Shown one piece after another: positions 27,301-63,086 of a DNA stretch of 64,000 nt. Positions within the stretch are counted from its first letter, which is position 1. Each line of letters opens with the position of its first letter. Below the pieces are notes generated by a model, which was not told the origin of the DNA, did no database searches, and saw only the letters and a list, made by a program, of their open reading frames with translations. Both the position numbers and the translations under genes were made by a program. Where the stretch lies: the NCBI RefSeq assembly GCF_000003815.2, contig NC_049980.1, forward strand, positions 8,665,431-8,729,430, read 5' to 3'. The stretch is from Branchiostoma floridae (Eukaryota; Chordata; Leptocardii; Amphioxiformes; Branchiostomatidae).

Positions 27301-30300
27301 ATCTGATTGGCTGGTGAGAGTAGCCAGCTATTTCACTCCTGAGTTGAGCTAGGAGGTTGCACATGTATTAGACTAATCAGTCAGTTCATGCCATCAATGA
27401 CCGTCCAATGACCCTATGAGTTTGTGATCTTGAGTTGTTTTTGTTATTAAGTATGAGTTGTTATTCTTTTGAGTGTTCCTAAGTTGCTTATATGATTTAC
27501 AAATCCGAATTGGATTATTGCTTTGTTATGTGCAATCCTATGTTAGCAGTTATCTTTTGTACTTTGAGTTATTATTATTGTTATAGGGCTCCATTGGAAA
27601 TCAGTTACTACGTTAACTGAAGGGACTACCCTAAAGATCAATAAATAAATAGAATAAATAAATCAGGTATGTGTACATGTTCATGCTGGTTAGTCTCTCT
27701 ATAGTTGTAGATTGTTGTACTTAAACAAACTATCTCAGTAGTGATACCATCTACAGCTGGTATTACATTAGATGCCCAACCTACCAGTTAGTATTTTTGG
27801 TGCTTGTAACCAGTACTTGTTCTTACCTTGAATGTGACCCTGATCTGATGTGTCCAGGTCCTCTTGTCTGTGTCAGAGTACAGACCGATGACGTCTGAGT
27901 GGATGGAGTCCCGGCTCACGGTCACGCTGTGCTTGTGGTAACCTTGGTTCATGGCCAGCTGCTGTCTCAGGCTGTCCAGTAATGCTGTCCCTCCTGAGAT
28001 TGAACTTCCTGCTGATACACCTGGGGCTGTGCTCCTGGGGAAAAAAAACACTGTAGTTTAATCTTAGTTCTCATAGACTTGATTTTGCAGTAGGAGAGAA
28101 AAAAAGCCATTTGTAGTGTTTCAAGTATACAGTAGAAACAACGTTAACTGTTGCAATGTAGTGTAAGACAGAACATGTGTTTGCACTATGAGGGTACGGA
28201 CACCACTGGGGGTACAGACACTACTGGGAGTACAGATACTACAAGTATCCGTACCCCCAGAAGTGTCATTACCCCCAGAAGTGTCATTACCCCCAGAAGT
28301 GTCCGTACCCCTAGTATTGTCCGTACCCCCAGTAGCGTCCATACCCCCAGTAGTGGCCCTACCCCCAGTAGTGTCCGTACCCCCAGTAGTGTCCATACCC
28401 CCAGTAGTGACCCTACCCCCAGTAGTGTCCGTACCCCCAGTAGTGTCCATACCCCCGGTAGTGTCCGTACCCCCAGTAGTGTCCGTACCCCCAGTAGTGT
28501 CCATACCCCCGGTAGTGACCCTACCCCCAGTAGTGTCCGTACCCCCAGTAGTGACCCTACCCCCAGTAGTGTCCGTACCCCCAGTAGTGTCCATACCCCC
28601 GGTAGTGTCCATACCCCCGGTAGTGTCCGTACCCCCAGAAGTGTACAGACACTTCCTGGTTTTAATGTTCACCTGTCAGACCGTCATTGCTATGGCAACG
28701 TCATTTTTACCAGTCTTGTTAGACATGGACTCCAACACACACTGTGCTGTACTAACCTGAGTGGAGGCCGGGTGAGACGACCAAACCGAGAGGAAATGTC
28801 TTCAACAGTCTCATCTGGTGCAGGATAGTCAACTCTCCTCAGAACTATGGGAGATTGAGACAGAAACACAAGAGAAGTTAAACGGCTGTGAGAGATGCTT
28901 AGAGTTCAATATTCAATAGTTTCAGTTGGACACTGAACAGGACTACATTGTATTTCCTAGGAGAAGTTGAATAGGCCACCTACGTCAGAGCCCATCAACT
29001 ATCCCTCAACAGAGATGGGCGCTGAAACTGTTTGCTGGCACCTCTAACCTGTTGGTGTCGTTCCACTTCCGGTCTGGTTACGCGACATTGGTGTTGAGCT
29101 CAAAGTCCAATTATTTCAAAGTATCATCAAGATCTACTCACAAACAAAATATCCAGACAATGAATCCATAAGTTACTGTTCATCCACAAGTTTGGACTCC
29201 AGGCTAAGACAAGTGAGTGTCATAAGAATTTAAGGCATGAGAAGATGAGAAGCACAAGTACCTCTGCACATGACACAGATGGGGCTGAGCCCAGTGTTGA
29301 CGTACGTGCACCTGTGGCACACCCAGGTTATCCTGTCTCCTTCGTCTGGAAGGACAAGACTTCTTTCAGTAAAAGTAGTTACACCACAATCATGCATTTC
29401 ATCATTATATATCATAATCATGTAGTCCCCTCAAAAGTGGAGATCCTGTAAGCAAATCATTTTTAAAAAGAACAGGTGAAACTGGATAGGTAAAACTTTG
29501 GGATGCAAAGAAGCAGGAAGAGCACACATACACGGGGCAGAGAGATGTCGAGAACAAGGGCAAAGGAAGTAGCAAGGATAAAAGCAAAGACGCCAGAAAT
29601 TTAAAGGAGTGGAGGTTGAGGGAAGGCCATAGGGTAGACATGGAAAACACATGTCCATGTAAGTCTCTTTACAAATATGGTAGGACATATTGGAAGACCC
29701 AAACTATGTCAGTGCAGAAATGTCCCACTTATACCCCATATCAATCCTCCAAACCTAACATGTTAGACGTCTTCTGCACTGTAGCCTAGGACTACATTTT
29801 GAGTTCTATAGGATATGGACACATTGACACTACAGCAGCTGCTATGGATATGGAAGTGACACATGATCTCAGCGCTAAGAAATGATACTGCTCATCTCCT
29901 CAATATTTCCTTTCATAACATCAGAACATGATTACTGTCCCTGCATACCTGCGCTGTCCTCTGTGATGCTGTCCTCTGGGGCACTGCTGTACTCCTCCCC
30001 ACTGTCCTCAGAGGAAGGTCCGACAGTCTCCCTCTCTGACTCTGGCTGTAGTGCTGAAATAACAGTTGTGGTTAAACATATTCCTGCTAAAACAAGAATT
30101 GTTTTGGTCCAGATTAGGTCTTTCTTCTTATACTAAATTCCCAAAATAGGTTTATCTGGTAAATAGCATATATTCTAACTTTGCCCTAAAAATTTTACTG
30201 AAAGTAAGCCAAGTTGTTGTGTATTCGGTTACCATCCCGATAGAAATGGAATGGATTCTCTTTTCTTTTTTTTCTTTTTTCTTAACTTAGATTTTGGCTG

Positions 30301-44561: not shown

Positions 44562-47500
44562 TCATCCAAGTATGTCCACATCTAGACTCTCCTCCTCCTC
44601 TTCTTTTACCCTCTGCAAATTAAGGACCTGGCAGAAAAAGTACAATAGAAATGTAGTATTAGACATTTAATAGAACCTATAGTATTATCCACCCGCGACC
44701 GCGAGTGATAGTATTATCGTATTTGCAAATCCCTACATTGTTCTCATTTGGATATAAACATGAAACTAAAACACTTTTACAATAATGCAGAATTTTTTCT
44801 CGGTGGCCTTTAGTCAGGCTACTGGCTCGCCCTCTAGAACTATGTGCGAGTAAAAACAACCGTACGTCTACTTGGTTTTGGGACCAGGTCATTAACAATC
44901 ATAATTATACTACATGTATACCATTAGGCTTGCCCTTTAGTATTATGTGCGAGTAAAAAAATGCTCATATTTACAATATACAGCTAACATGCTTAACACA
45001 GTTTTAAGCTCCGTTAGGCTTCTGACTGAAAAAAAAGAAGAAATAAAAAGAACACACCACAATGTTTTCCCTACCATGGTACTTCATAAGGCCACACCAA
45101 TTTAATTTCTTGGTTCTCGGATTTCCCGGTCCATGTTTTTCCAATTTTGAAAAAAAAATTGGTCCCAAGGAAAACAATATACTCTTAGGTCCCTGAAATA
45201 AACGTACCGGGACATTTATTTTTTTCAGCCACAAAATCCACCCGGTGCGTTCTTATATTGGACGGTACGTTTATTAAGTTTTTGAAAATTAGAACAGGGA
45301 CCCCTGAAATAGTGAAAATTTGGGATTTTTTGCCCATATTTCCTTGTTTTTTTTTGTTGTCATATAAGCCTCATCTGTTCACCCCAGACTTTTTGCAAAA
45401 TTTTATTTTTCATTTATTTTCCACCGGCCGACCCAATATTTTTCTGCAAAAAAAACGAGAACCAAGAAATTAAATTGGTGTGGCCTAATGAGTAATTACA
45501 TACCTCCTCCTTGCCAAAAAATCCACTTCTTTTCTCCTTCATGGCCTGTCTGTGTTCTTTCTTCTGTCTCTGTCTCAGTGCTTTCAGCTGGTTTCTTCTT
45601 TCACGAGATTGTCTCTACAAGGGGAACAAGTACAGGCTTTGACTGTGAGATTCTTACTTACGCAAGGCAAAGACACAAACTTTTAGCTTTGATACCTCTT
45701 CATGTTTGTAGTTGTAAAGTTAAAGCTTTGTTCCAACAGAACACAAAGAAAGGAACTCACCATAAAGTTTTGGTCAAACTTGTTGACCTTCTTCAGATGT
45801 AGGTTCCCATCTTTGCATGGGAACAAAGCTTAAACTTTACAACTATGGATCCTACCAACACAGATGAGCTTTCATTCAAACTTTACTTTGTGTACGGATA
45901 TACTTTATAAAGTTTGAGATGGTAACATAATGTTCATGCGATGCTTAACTGACCTTTGATTCCTTAGTCTTCTCCGCCTGAGTCATGGCGTGCACATGGC
46001 CATCGCTGGAGCTGCTGCAGCCACTGCTGCTGGACTCACTGCAGCTGCTGGAGGCCGAGCTGCAGTCTTTACTTCTCTTGTCTATACAAGTCTTCACATA
46101 GTTCCGCACCTGCTGCAGTTTCTCATCATCTATCACATCTAGATCTGCATGGGAGGAGAAACGTGGGTTAGTACAGTCTTTACTTCTCTTGTCTATACAC
46201 GTCTTCACATAGTTCCGCACCTGCTGTAGCTTCTCATCATCTATCACATCTAGATCTGTGTGGGAGGAGAAACGTGGGTTAGTACAGTCTTTACTTCTCT
46301 TGTCTATACACGTCTTCACATAGTTCCGCACCTGCTGCAGCTTGTCATTGTCTATCACATCTAGATCTGCATGGGAGGAGAAACGTGGGTAAGTACAGTC
46401 TTTACTTCTCTTGTCTATACACGTCTTCACATAGTTCCGCACCTGCTGAAGCTTGTCATCGTCTATCACATCTAGATCTGCATGGGAGGAGAAACGTGGG
46501 TTAGTACAGTCTTTACTTCTCTTGTCTATATATGTCTTCACATAGTTCCGCACCTGCTGAAGCTTGTCATCGTCTATCACATCTAGATCTGCATGGGAGG
46601 AGAAACGTGGGTTAGTACAGTCTTTACTTCTCTTGTCTATACACGTCTTCACATAGTTCCGCACCTGCTGCAGTTTCTCATCGTCTATCACATCTAGATC
46701 TGCATGGAAGGAGAAACGTGGGTAAGTACACTACAAGACTGTTTCGTCTTGAAAGGATGTTTAAGAAAAATGTCACACTAAGAATTTGAGACTGTCTTCA
46801 ACAGGTAATGCTGGTTATATACAGTGCTGCATATCTGTACACCAGAACTGGACTTTTTCGGTTAAAAAAAGCAGAGAACCTGTTCTGGAACAAAAACTGT
46901 CTTTCGCTCATACTCTCTTTTTATTGTAAACCTTCTAAAACCCCCTTCATAGATTGTAAAATTTGTGCTGGAAACAAGATAAAAACATTGCTATGTTTGT
47001 TTTTATTACTTAGCTCTTGTGTTTACTACTTTATTAACTCTATAATTTTGCATGTAATAACATACAATGTAACATGTACCTGACAAAAGTATTTCTAGCA
47101 CACATGCCATGGCATGGGTTCAAGTCCGGACTTAAGTAAACATGAACCTAAACCTCTGGACCTGAACCTGAACATGAGATTAGGTAAGTAGCACTAGTTG
47201 TATTTGACTGTTTGCAAGCCTTAAAGCCAACATCTCATATCACAGTAGAAGTTGGTAGTTATAACTTGCAGTGTTTTTCTGGCACCACTGGTAAGACCTT
47301 CAGGCAATAACGACACTGCAGGAAGACCTGCTGTGGTGCGTTTGGCAACATCTAACCTAATCTCCAAGCAGATCCTACGGTAGCATACGATAGTATCAAA
47401 AGCTGGCAGAGGAGTGAAGCTGGCTTAGGAGCGTGTTTCGCTACCGGAGCAAATGACTATTTCCTGGCCAGTTTGGTACTCTTATGCCATTGTAGGATCT

Positions 47501-50500
47501 GGTTGGAGATTACATCATACCATCATTTTTATCTTCTGTATAGAATCTTTAAAAAAAACTTGAAAAGGTAACTTAATGCTTCCATTCAACATTACTTTTG
47601 GCTAAGGCCATGTCAAGTCCATTATATGGATGACATCCCAAAACTGATGCGGGCACGTGAAAAAAAATGTTCGTTGAATAAAAAGTTGCCTTCACTACTT
47701 AGATTTAGTCTAAGTGGTCAGAAAGGTTTGATCAAATAACACGCAAGGTATAGTATACCACAATAAATTCTTCATTTGTGTTCTTTTTACATCTTCTTCT
47801 TTAACTTTGAAATTGGCTTAAGCATTCTAAGACATCAGTTTTCCAACATTTTTTCTTAGCAATATAAAGCATACATTTTGCAGATAATTTTATGTAATTT
47901 ACAAATAACTTATTCTGTAAACAGACAAAAATTGATGTACCAAATCAATATGGCCTTATCTTTTGAAACAGCATGATGATGCATTTGTACATAAAATAAG
48001 TTTACAAGGTGATTAACCAAATGTAGGATGGGTCACTTTCCAACCCATTTGAAATAACTGTCAGTTGGCATTTCAATGGTTCAAAAGTGGTGTTTAGAAG
48101 CCTTACCTATGACAAACTCGCTGTCTGTGGGGTGGATTTTGGCATCAGGACTTATGATTCGTATGACCTCCAGCTGTTCCCGTAGGCCCATGCTGTTACT
48201 GATCACGTGACTCAGGGTCTCCACCACGCTGATCTGTTCTTCATCCGACATGTCAGTCCTGCAGAGGGCGCGGGAAAAACTGTTATCTTCTGTGGCATCT
48301 CGCAGGTAAGTGATATACCTTACATACTGTGGGAAATCCCAACTTAATCCCTGACAAATCCACAACTACCACACACAGGATTATTGTAGGACATAACAAT
48401 TGTTGGTATCACATTAAAAGAAAAGTTCTATCATAATAGCATTTACCAAAGTTACTATCCACAGTTGGAAGTTATCGATGTCTATAAGCAGGGCTCGAAA
48501 TACTTTTTTCTGTATACCTGAACTGGTGCAGTTAACATTGAAAATTACCTGCACCAAACAAATCTTACCTGCACCACTCTGAATTCAGGAAATATGGATC
48601 ATACTAAAATGGTTCAGGAACCATTGCTATTTTTTCTTTCACACTTAACAGGTAGTAACAGTCAATGCTGCTAATAACAATCCATATACACCTAAATCAT
48701 AGCATACATAATGTATAAAACCCAGTACATGGACCAGTGCAGGTAGACACCAGAAATACCTGCACAGCTCCAATTTTACCTGCACTAACCTGCATATGCA
48801 GGTGGTATTTCGAGCCCTGATAAGATATAGTCATTGCTTTGTGAGTCAATCTGCATGCCAGTGACTTCAATAGCCTAATGCAGGGCTCGCAATTCAGACC
48901 CACTTATTCTTAAAATTCAGGTGCGCAACAAAATGGGTGCACAGCATACAAGTAGCATAAAGTAGAATGTCAGCAAAAAACTAAGTGCACCAGTGCGCCC
49001 GTGGACAAAAATTAGATGCACAGCACCAAGTTTGGGTGCACAAAACTGCACTCATGTGCAAGATATTTCAAGCCCTGTAATACAGGTATGATTGCAAATA
49101 TGATTTAATCAATAAAAATATAGTACATGTTGTGTATGCCTATGAACCAGCTCTTCTCAAAGGATCTATACTCTATATGATGGAATAGACAATCTAGTCT
49201 AGATTTGTATGGTATGTAACCAAACATCGGACCACCTACCATGGGACGTTGTCCAAGTGTTTTCTCTTCTTCTTGGGAGGGCTGGGTGGGTTTGGTAGGA
49301 TGGGGATGCTCTCTGTTTTGTTGTTGTCATTACTCTGTGTTGCATTCACGTTGTTGTTTGTCACTTGTAGGTCCAGGTCACTGTCTGACAACTCAAAGGT
49401 GCTCAAAGAAACATGGTCTGAGAGGGAGAAAAAGAGACAAATATGCACATGAACAAGATGATCACTGATGATGTCTAGAGATACGATCCAAATCAAAGAT
49501 TCCACGCAAGTATCATTTCTTCTCAGAGAATTTCTACCTGCTTAATCACAGGTTTCTCACCGGTACAGTTAAACATGGGGGTACCTATGATAAAATTTGG
49601 GCCCCAACATGTTTCAACGTACGTGGAGGGCTTTTCTGTTGTTTGGTAAGGTTGGCATAATTTCATTACAATTGGCCATTAAAATTCAGGAAACAGTGTT
49701 CCTGACGGGTATAAACTTGCCAGAATGCCCCAGACTACCCTACAATGTCCACACCTGTGCCAGTTGCTATGTTGCTTCCACATACTAAAATTCCCCCTAC
49801 GCTGTGAAAAAGTCCTGGTAAGAACCTGCCTTGTAGCATGATAGATAATACAAACCTACACGTAACTGTAGTAACTGTGTCATCAATGTACAGAATGACA
49901 TAGAATGCAATCTCAACAGTGTATCAATGTACAAGTCCTTCATACTCAGTCCGTCCCACCTGTTGCGTTTCCATCTTCCAGAAGGTTCAAGATGGACGTG
50001 TTTAAGTAATCTGACTCGGACCCGCTGAAGAAGTTATCCGAGATGCCTCCAACATCGATGATGGTGTCCTCATCCGCGTCGTACTCGGAGCTGGCGACCG
50101 AGGTCGAGCAGGACGCGCTGTTTCCCGTCGACAGGTTTCTTCTGTATTCCTGAGTCACCTGTTTCTCTTGTTTAACTCTGTGGAAGTAAATAAATACAGC
50201 AATGTATGTTGCAAACGCTTCACATGGAACAGCAGGGCTTGAAACACTAGCCTCCATAGCAGGCTCTTGGGGCCTCTTTTTCGTTTTTGCAATGTACAAA
50301 AAGACATGGCCAGCAAAAGTATATTATGAGCAAAAAAAGCAAGAAAAAAAGGCCCAGAAGTCTGCTATGGAGGCTATCGAAACTGTGGTTGCATCTAGCT
50401 AATCTTATAGGCCATAGAATGAAGAACTATGTACCCTACTAGTATACAGACTATTCTTCATACTAAATGTCTGAATAAGCAATAGTACCTTTCTTGTACA

Positions 50501-60098: not shown

Positions 60099-63086
60099 TC
60101 ACACAGAGGTTTCACGCGCAGGTACCAGTAGAATGCCAGTTTCAGCCTTCTCGGTGTCGCCCATGTCCGTCAGTGACCCCGAAGTGTCCGTCGGTCGTTT
60201 CTTCCTGAGTCGCAGAAGGAACGGCAAGAGTCCGGCCAGTAGGAACCCAGCGCCTGCCTGGAGAAACGTGGCGTCGTAACTTTTGGTCTCGTCGAACAGC
60301 CAGCCTGGACAAACATACAGGGTTTAATAGCATTATTACCTTCGCCAGAAGGTTATGTTTTAGTGTCTGTCCGTCTGTCTGTTTGTCAACATGATAACTA
60401 GAGAAGACCAGAATGGAGTGTTGGGTATGTGGACTTGGTGAGACCTGGAAATATCAATCCCTAGATTCGCTGGCGGCTTGTTACGGAACTGCCGTGGATC
60501 TTCCTGTTTTTGTATCTTTTCATCTGAAGATGTCACGGTCACCACGTCATAGTGGTAGATAGCTCTAATTTATGGAAAGAAGTGGCTTAAATTTTAGCTC
60601 CCTACCAGCTTGTTCTGGAAGTGCAGGAGCATTTCAAGAAGGAATTGGTTGTTAAGATACTGTCCTGTAATACTGCATGTCTTGAACCAAAGGTATGCCT
60701 AAGTTCATTTGAAATATTTTCAGCTTAAGATGCATCAAATGCCTTAGTATTCATCTTTACTAACCTGCAAATGGCGGTCCAGACAGCGACGCGAACCCCT
60801 GTACGGACATCAAAATTCCAATTGCACTGGGAAGACGTTTCGGGCCTACGAGTTCGGCAAGACACGTCAGTGAGATCGGGATAAAGGCACCATAGAACAC
60901 CCCGTGCGCGATAGCGTACGCCACGAGCGCCGGGTACGTCTTGGCTAGGGGAGATAGAAGGTTGGAGATGCCCAGCAGACACAGACTCAGTCCAAACTGA
61001 TCCAATCGGCCGAACCTGGAGTTGTCCGGAACGGCCCCGACTGCCAACCGACTGACCATGTCTGCGATAGAGATGACAGAGAGGAGAGAGGCCGCGGTGT
61101 AGTCCTCGATCTGTAGGTACTTGGCGCGAGGAACGATGTACAACGGCGGCACTATGAGACAGAACGAAACTATAAACATCGACGTCAAGAACAAGGCCAC
61201 CGCAGGTATCTTCATAACTTTAAAATCCATCTGTGCCCAGAAAGTTTTGAGAAAGTCCATTGTAGCTGCTGACCACTTCTTTGTCGTGTTAGTTTCCAGA
61301 ACGGTGTCCGAGTTGGTCATTCCGTTCTTCCCTGGCTTCTCAGCAGTCTTAGGTCCATTTTCGACTTTCCTGTCACTGTAGGCCTCGAGAGGTCTGATCA
61401 ATGCCCCCGCTACGACCATATTGAGCATGATGCCGCCTATGATGAGCAGAGCTCCCTTCAGACCATAGTCGTCCATCAGATACTGGAAGAGCGGTGGGAA
61501 CGACATGGAAGTGACACTGGAGCCCAGCAGGGTCAGGCTGTTGGCTAGAGCGCGTCGTTTGGTGAAGTACTGCCCGACAATCGCCATGGCGGGACTAAGA
61601 GTGAGGGCATATCCAAGGCCTGTTTGGAACAACAAAGAAAGAGTTATCATTAGCCTCATTTGCAGACCTCTAGCGGCGATTTGACAGGTCACTGAACGAA
61701 TTTGATAGCTATTTAATTAGAGAACGATTTTTTAAATTTACTTTTACATCTTGCACCAATCTTGTTGTTAAGGGTTACGCAAATCCATTTTTGCTCGCTG
61801 TCGTTCGGTGAACGCCGTGTAGTGGACACACCATACACACATGTATGGGATATAGGTTGGTTAGTCTAATGATATTTCACGTCATGAAAGCCCATCTGTG
61901 TTGGTAGTAATCATGATAGTACAATGCTAAACTTTCTTGACGTAAGCAATTGCAAATGGTCAAACGCACAAGGAAGTTTATAACGAGGGGGGGGTCTCTG
62001 TTCACTGATGAGTGTTCTGATGTATACCTAGCTCCTTTATACATCTTACAAAGCAGTCTTGTTCAGTGTCCAGTATTCTGACTTTGTGCAGTGAAACGTT
62101 AAGGCCCGTTGATTCAATGTGGTTGTGTTGAGAGACTTCCAACGACAATGGACTTGGGCATTTGTATTCAAAGAATCTAATTGAGTTCTAAACTTCCCTG
62201 CACGTTTGACCAATTGCTGACGCAACGTATCCGCACGATCACGTGATAATGGGTCGCGGGGTTGTAACCTTGCGCGACTGAGTTTACGTTCTGAAGTGTT
62301 TGGTCATAAGTATTGATCCTGAAGTAGGCGAAAGTGCACGTGGTCATTGAAAATTTGATCCGTGTATACCTTTGGAAGAAAGTTTAGCATTGCACTATGG
62401 TATTTCACATCAATTGCGAAACAGAAAAACTAGAATTCGGCCATCAATGTTGAGAAATCCACAAGACCGACCTGTCAGACATCCTATACCCAAGTACAAG
62501 TGAAACATGCGGGTCGCGAAACCGCTGATGATGTAGCCTGCAGCCGACAGCACCCCTCCCAGCATGACGGTGGGGCGGAAACCTATGGTGCTCGCCAGGG
62601 CTGTACCAACCGGAGCTACGGAGAAATAATGAATGAATGAAGAAGACCTTTATTGCACATTTATCACAATCGCACAATCTTCCCCACCAACCTCTGAGAA
62701 TAAACACAATGGACCCAACAAAAGTATCTGTCTGGGGCGTCTTGGTGCGAATTTAAAAACAAAACAAACTCACTGACAAGTTGTTCCAGAAGTAAAACAG
62801 AATGATGACTTTACTGCTTGCACGATATCGTAAATACAATCAGGTGCGTGAAAATGCTGATGTTGAACTCACATAGGAAATACGTGACGCTCATCAGAAT
62901 AGAGGTTATCCACGCCGTCTCCGCCGAGCTGGCCTGGAACTGTCGGCTGAACGTCAGGAAGAAAACCCCGAGGGAGCGGAAGATTCCCGCCGTACAGCCA
63001 CTGACTATAAACGCGCCAACCACCACCATCCAACCCCATCCGCCGTCCGGGGGCTGGGGGGAGCTTTGGGGGGTCGGGCTCGTCAT
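60099..63086 (-). CDS. SLC16-family (monocarboxylate-transporter-like) protein
   Basis: Four exons: 63086-62873, 62615-62472, 61619-60765, 60304-60099 (TGA). They total 1419 nt, 472 residues, in phase, the normal length for the family. It opens with the MCT signature DGGWGWMVVVGAF at 14-26. There are twelve predicted membrane segments: two in exon 1, two in exon 2, the rest in exons 3 and 4. A hydrophilic loop at about 197-236 separates the halves. D306 and R310 (ADMVSRL) match the TM8 Asp and Arg that are essential in MCT1. The TM1 lysine of MCT1 is replaced by R37 (GIFRSLGVFF). MCTs move lactate, pyruvate, thyroid hormones or amino acids; the exact substrate cannot be read from sequence, and the K-to-R change makes classical proton-lactate transport less certain. 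It resembles the MCT12/13 group by overall impression only. Confidence 0.88.
60336..60375 (+). repeat. Fragment of an ACCTTCGCCAGAAGG-type repeat
   Basis: ATTACCTTCGCCAGAAGGTTATGTTTT followed by TGTCTGTCCGTCTGTCTG is a sequence type I know as a common dispersed repeat in marine invertebrate genomes. It lies in the last MCT intron; its other boundary was not found. Confidence 0.4.

Follow-up and report, generated by a model that had tools for sequence, protein, structure and literature searches.

The window, i.e., the entire stretch of 64,000 nt which was analysed, carries on its minus strand a FAM199X gene, very probably of an amphioxus. The exon model is a reading of the sequence. In the order of transcription it begins with an exon of 218 nt at 49960-50177, supported by reading frame and splice sites; the gene start lies further upstream and is not part of the model. 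The next exon (49240-49417; 178 nt) is equally defined by reading frame and splice sites and has no Pfam match of its own. It is followed by an exon of 152 nt at 48107-48258 (donor TAG/GTAAGG, phase 1) which encodes the first part of the conserved FAM199X core. Then comes the exon which is the subject of this report. Downstream of it are an exon of 111 nt at 45504-45614, corresponding to positions 265-304 of the FAM199X profile, and the start of the last coding exon at 45005-45025, which reads SEA and then the native stop. The two exons adjoining the array exon had been proposed in an earlier note on this DNA and the spliced reading frame places them exactly there.

The assignment to FAM199X, also made in that note, is borne out by Pfam. 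The spliced protein with a single module scores 151.4 bits against PF15814 (E 4.4e-44; cut-off 27), the protein with six modules 171.8 bits (E 2.7e-50; cut-off 27). By score the six-module protein still is a FAM199X member. The profile itself has one module: the upstream exon matches positions 115-168 and one unit matches 169-196. The claim that vertebrate FAM199X has one module thus agrees with the profile, on which alone it was checked. Where the profile has one module between flanking conserved segments the locus has six; this single module is a feature of the profile and not a stated criterion of the family. A search of the assembly (513,431,437 bases in 431 contigs) gave one match for the upstream exon and six for the module, all seven at this locus; these counts are lower bounds.

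Several other elements are present in the window. Inverted repeats of 41 nt, 93% complementary and 326 nt apart, lie at 45084-45491 in the intron after exon 45614-45504 and resemble a small terminal-inverted-repeat element. The intron just after the array exon has an inverted repeat of 26 nt at 45709-45845 (96% complementary, 85 nt between the arms), which could shorten the effective length of this intron, and the intron before the array exon has one of 33 nt at 47358-47512 (85% complementary, 89 nt between the arms). More distant are an 18-bp tandem array at 28244-28644 (22.3 copies, 89% matches) and a reading frame on the minus strand at 60760-61716 which matches the major facilitator superfamily transporters (PF07690, 90.9 bits).

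At 46063-46730 Tandem Repeats Finder reports an array with a period of 111, 6.0 copies, 95% matches, 0% indels and a score of 1203. An array of such a score is not a chance product. The segment which stands here in tandem measures 111 bp: 29 nt come from the 3' end of a FAM199X intron and 82 nt from the start of the exon behind it. On the minus strand the array is preceded by the native intron end at 46700-46728, with a TACTTAC motif, a pyrimidine tract and CAG, which is the acceptor of unit 1. Units 1-5 (46145-46699) are five complete copies of 111 nt. In each, 82 nt of module sequence derived from the exon come first and an acceptor piece of 29 nt derived from the intron comes second; the latter consists of a branch-point motif, a pyrimidine tract and CAG. 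Five copies of the intron end accordingly sit between the six modules. The module of unit 6 continues into the native, Ser-rich exon tail (45954-46144; 191 nt; donor AAAG/GTCAGT; profile positions 168-228), and this stretch probably is the ancestral exon.

The earlier note had described six exact units of 111 bp. Six entries do exist on the minus strand, yet only five units are complete in the exon, since unit 6 runs into the native tail, and exact they are not: the module parts differ pairwise by 2-6 nt (mean 4.5%, 15 pairs). The five duplicated acceptor pieces differ by 0-3 nt (mean 4.1%). The reading frame is open through the whole array. The linker TNPRFSSHA, the one which had been given, occurs in three of the five linkers derived from the old intron end; the other two read TYPRFSSHA and TNPRFSSHT. 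The RNA fold of the array exon was calculated, without a control, at -196.8 kcal/mol and does not enter into the conclusions.

How did this array originate? The array is bordered by native intron before unit 1 and by the native exon tail after unit 6, i.e., the unit joins an intron end and an exon start and has native sequence on both sides. At the exon-to-intron junction a TG is common to both parent sequences, so a simple tandem duplication at a homology of 2 bp can explain the array. Both observations support a tandem duplication across the intron-exon boundary, the origin initially suggested. A single tandem duplication would have come first, with growth via repeat-to-repeat exchange thereafter. 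Units 1 and 6, which are farthest apart, differ by only 2 nt, likewise units 2 and 3 and units 3 and 4, and a C at module position 23 is common to units 2-4 alone. Growth from the middle of the array would fit the similarity of units 1 and 6 and the C of units 2-4; it is not proven by them. For the Chinese lancelet a SNP polymorphism of 4.39% is given in PMC4284660. The divergence of the units is close to this value; if the DNA is that of an amphioxus, the array therefore is young or has been kept alike by exchange.

The acceptors enter at 46699, 46588, 46477, 46366, 46255 and 46144 on the minus strand, all six precisely as predicted. Every one of them has a branch-point motif at a distance of 24, and the absence of AG between motif and acceptor, which had been claimed for all, was confirmed by eye in six of six. 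TACTAAC, supposedly present in every unit, is found at four acceptors; 46699, the native intron end, and 46366 have TACTTAC. Acceptor 46255 ends in CACACAG. Variation within the acceptor piece is confined to positions -25, -9, -5 and -4 and spares the branch A as well as the tract and the AG. Using an approximate matrix the six acceptors are at the 98.9-99.3 percentile of 3,998 AGs on this strand, the five other acceptors of the gene at 98.2-100.

The six acceptors do enter in the same phase. This had been attributed to the unit length of 37 codons, yet it holds whatever the unit length because the same module position is entered each time; divisibility of the length by three is needed only when translation continues from one module to the next. 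All six acceptor choices are open to the native stop. When boundary-crossing duplications were modelled at four exons of the gene, the frame remained open in 32-33% of cases for three of the exons and in 0% for the remaining one; for the array exon, the intron end used in the model consists of array sequence beyond 29 nt. The open frame therefore is no great coincidence. The comparison with NAGNAG-type tandem acceptors has to be abandoned: in these the AGs are a few nt apart and share one branch point, whereas here 111 nt separate one acceptor from the next and no branch-point motif is shared. According to PMC9225289, the choice between human acceptors separated by more than about 20 nt is typically made at the first step, and separate branch points are used.

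Each unit also contains a strong donor-like site, CAG/GTGCGG, on the minus strand, which the earlier note had not mentioned. The same 9-mer is present in all six units, at 46659-46667 in unit 1 and at 46548-46556, 46437-46445, 46326-46334, 46215-46223 and 46104-46112 in units 2-6. Together with the acceptor of the next unit it bounds a potential mini-intron of 76 nt. By an approximate matrix it scores 9.12, the 99.3 percentile of 3,960 GTs, compared with 8.26 for the array exon's own donor and 7.79-9.75 for the five donors of the gene. Combining six entry points with all subsets of mini-introns between adjacent units, we enumerated 63 isoforms. Those with at least one mini-intron are truncated without exception (57 of 57); the six without any are open. 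The mini-intron join reads CAG ATC TAG. On this reading the array may be a ladder for the protein and may equally be a trap. Frame-keeping intron gain was considered and rejected, as the donors are weak or the introns measure 18-54 nt (units 1 and 2). As a separate observation, the site in unit 6 (46104-46112) could join the exon starting at 45614 in frame, with loss of the module end and the Ser-rich tail.

Since the repeat covers just the last part of the conserved FAM199X core, profile positions 169-196 of 320, we rejected the notion that the units are complete domains. The core piece encoded by 48107-48258 plus 46062-46144 (minus strand) resembles the ET domain of the BET proteins (PF17035), just under the cut-off of 24.5: the 85-aa piece formed by the upstream exon and one module reaches 24.0 bits (E 4.3e-5), the full one-module protein 20.6 bits (E 0.0005). 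The 32.9 bits of the six-module protein are taken as raised by the repeats. In a PDB search (E up to 10) BRD3 or BRD4 accounted for five of the seven matches listed, with a best E of 0.2, and macroH2A for two. The array reading frame alone had no BRD match in PDB; its one match, mL80 (E 0.081), is not significant. In the library searched, no paper mentions both FAM199X and the bromodomain. If the ET likeness is right, the repeated module presumably matches the last helix of the ET fold, and any additional modules would extend the protein by helices and linkers rather than by whole domains.

Other domain matches did not withstand scrutiny. Against the BEN domain (cut-off 23.2) the array scores 53.9 bits (E 2e-14), yet a single unit reaches 16.8 and the 85-aa piece 14.0, and BEN is absent from the matches of the one-module protein; the array score is taken as a sum over repeats. 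The same applies to DUF6160, RusA, COMPASS-Shg1, UBX and Sedlin_N, for which the array passes the cut-offs and no single stretch is significant.

Are the upstream modules translated? By hand count nine changes were inferred in the modules, with positions 29 and 56 counted twice; six are silent and three are replacements. With an expected silent fraction of 0.19-0.27 the excess of silent changes has a P of 0.0025-0.0135. Without the change private to unit 6, five of eight are silent (P 0.009-0.035), and when sites are counted once four of seven (P 0.03-0.085). These thin numbers suggest, for now weakly, that the upstream modules are translated. Gene conversion from a constrained copy could also yield a silent excess.

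The array exon measures 746 nt from the first acceptor and 191 nt from the last; the introns flanking it measure 1,407 and 339 nt. In the human data of PMC9225289 upstream acceptors are preferred overall. The upstream bias is described there as significantly less when both introns exceed 250 nt, the sites closest across the exon being favoured, and exons between longer introns as efficiently included only below about 500 nt. Human splicing rules may fail as a guide in this organism. With a confidence somewhat short of even, we favour a mixture of acceptors which is rich in the last one and in which the upstream modules would be confined to longer in-frame proteins, a minority of the products. 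Since a branch-point motif and an acceptor came with every copy, six sites could compete for one donor, that at 48107. Acceptor 46144 would be the likeliest single source of the main product, with an exon of 191 nt and the ancestral one-module protein, because both flanking introns exceed 250 nt and an exon of 746 nt is beyond the size with which exon definition copes readily. The upstream acceptors would give rise to the minority of longer proteins, with the old intron end read as a linker of nine residues. With the acceptor carried along, the duplication could have arisen at little cost to the ancestral protein. A ladder of one to six modules in the protein, generated by acceptor choice as initially suggested, is possible in principle, all six choices being open. 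In its full form, tissue-dependent, with a unit number that varies between individuals and with mini-intron splicing as a brake on expression, we regard it as quite unlikely.

Plain exonisation would mean that the native acceptor 46699 is nearly always used, that six modules are translated and that the inner acceptors are silent relics. We consider this a serious though fairly unlikely alternative. It agrees with the overall preference for upstream acceptors in human (PMC9225289), with the open frame and the silent excess, and with the cDNA of a BRCA1 duplication which, as reported, held the whole duplicate including its intron part (PMC11839443). Yet the primers used in that work amplified the altered arrangement only, and its authors state that other transcripts could not be quantified. 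The first acceptor does have the highest score of the six, 10.55 versus 9.76-10.22 for the inner ones (approximate matrix). However, the inner acceptors fall short of it by no more than 0.8 bit, four of these five have the better branch-point match, and a 746-nt exon between introns of 1,407 and 339 nt speaks against its constant use. The opposite extreme is an array which behaves as part of the intron. Splicing would then go to 46144 alone, units 1-5 would be removed and the protein would stay as it was. The exon-definition preference (PMC9225289), an exon of 191 nt and the ancestral exon context retained by unit 6 all point in this direction. It is nevertheless unlikely in view of the silent excess and of the lack of any frameshift or stop in units 1-5, an argument which is itself weak with about 13 inferred changes.

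Tandem mini-introns, in which the CAG/GTGCGG of a unit joins the next acceptor, bring in a stop and lower expression via nonsense-mediated decay, have in their favour that the donor-like site occurs in every unit and outscores the exon's own donor, and that an intron gain in a potato RdRp gene is a precedent (PMC4974935). Their constant use would be harmful, given that all the enumerated isoforms which contain them are truncated; exon pieces of 35 nt would be left over, and the 9-mer also does no more than encode Gln-Val-Arg within the module. We hold this to be very unlikely. That the array is an artefact of assembly or haplotype merging, the real alleles having fewer units, appears exceedingly improbable. 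The length of a Sanger read is near that of the 668-nt array. If the assembly used here is the published one of B. floridae, it goes back, as described, to Sanger reads of about tenfold coverage, and HaploMerger2 was used to merge two haplotypes (PMC7269912). The copy number rests on one assembly. Against an artefact stand the private differences carried by the units and the search of the 513-Mb assembly, in which, among the best candidates scored, no second copy of the array, neither a second haplotype nor a paralogue, was found. The event most likely is a young duplication across an intron-exon boundary, and splicing would yield a mixture in which the short form is abundant.

Six near-identical acceptors facing one donor amount to a natural version of the classic splice-site competition experiments. 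Exon definition predicts use of the last acceptor, intron proximity use of the first. The locus also suggests that a splice acceptor carried along by a coding duplication can soften its effects from the very beginning. In the duplicated-acceptor minigenes of the 1980s near-identical acceptors reportedly compete for one donor, and the FAM199X array would be a natural, six-fold version in an endogenous gene. Within-gene duplications are said to form a general class in which splice sites may be included; here the result instead is a repeat ladder of acceptors.

Two documented cases come close. In BRCA1 a partial duplication of exon 10 likewise sets an intron end and an exon start in tandem (395 nt of intron 9 and 1,617 nt of exon 10), and the intron part appears in cDNA (PMC11839443). 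Transcripts which keep such an intron piece can thus occur, as far as this report goes. Unlike the FAM199X array, the BRCA1 duplication is described as single, large (2,012 bp), out of frame and pathogenic. Closer is the potato RdRp gene PGSC0003DMG402000361 (Ma et al., 2016; PMC4974935), in which a boundary-crossing tandem duplication likewise copied branch site, pyrimidine tract, acceptor and exon start. There, according to the source, one extra copy was made, and a new intron arose through activation of a cryptic donor in the exon (106 RNA-Seq reads). FAM199X in contrast has five extra copies, and a comparable pairing would break the frame. Our non-exhaustive search of the literature on duplicated acceptors, boundary-crossing duplications and repeat-borne acceptors found no closer precedent, which is weak evidence. 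The kind of event is known from the potato RdRp gene; a ladder of six steps would be a new form of it.
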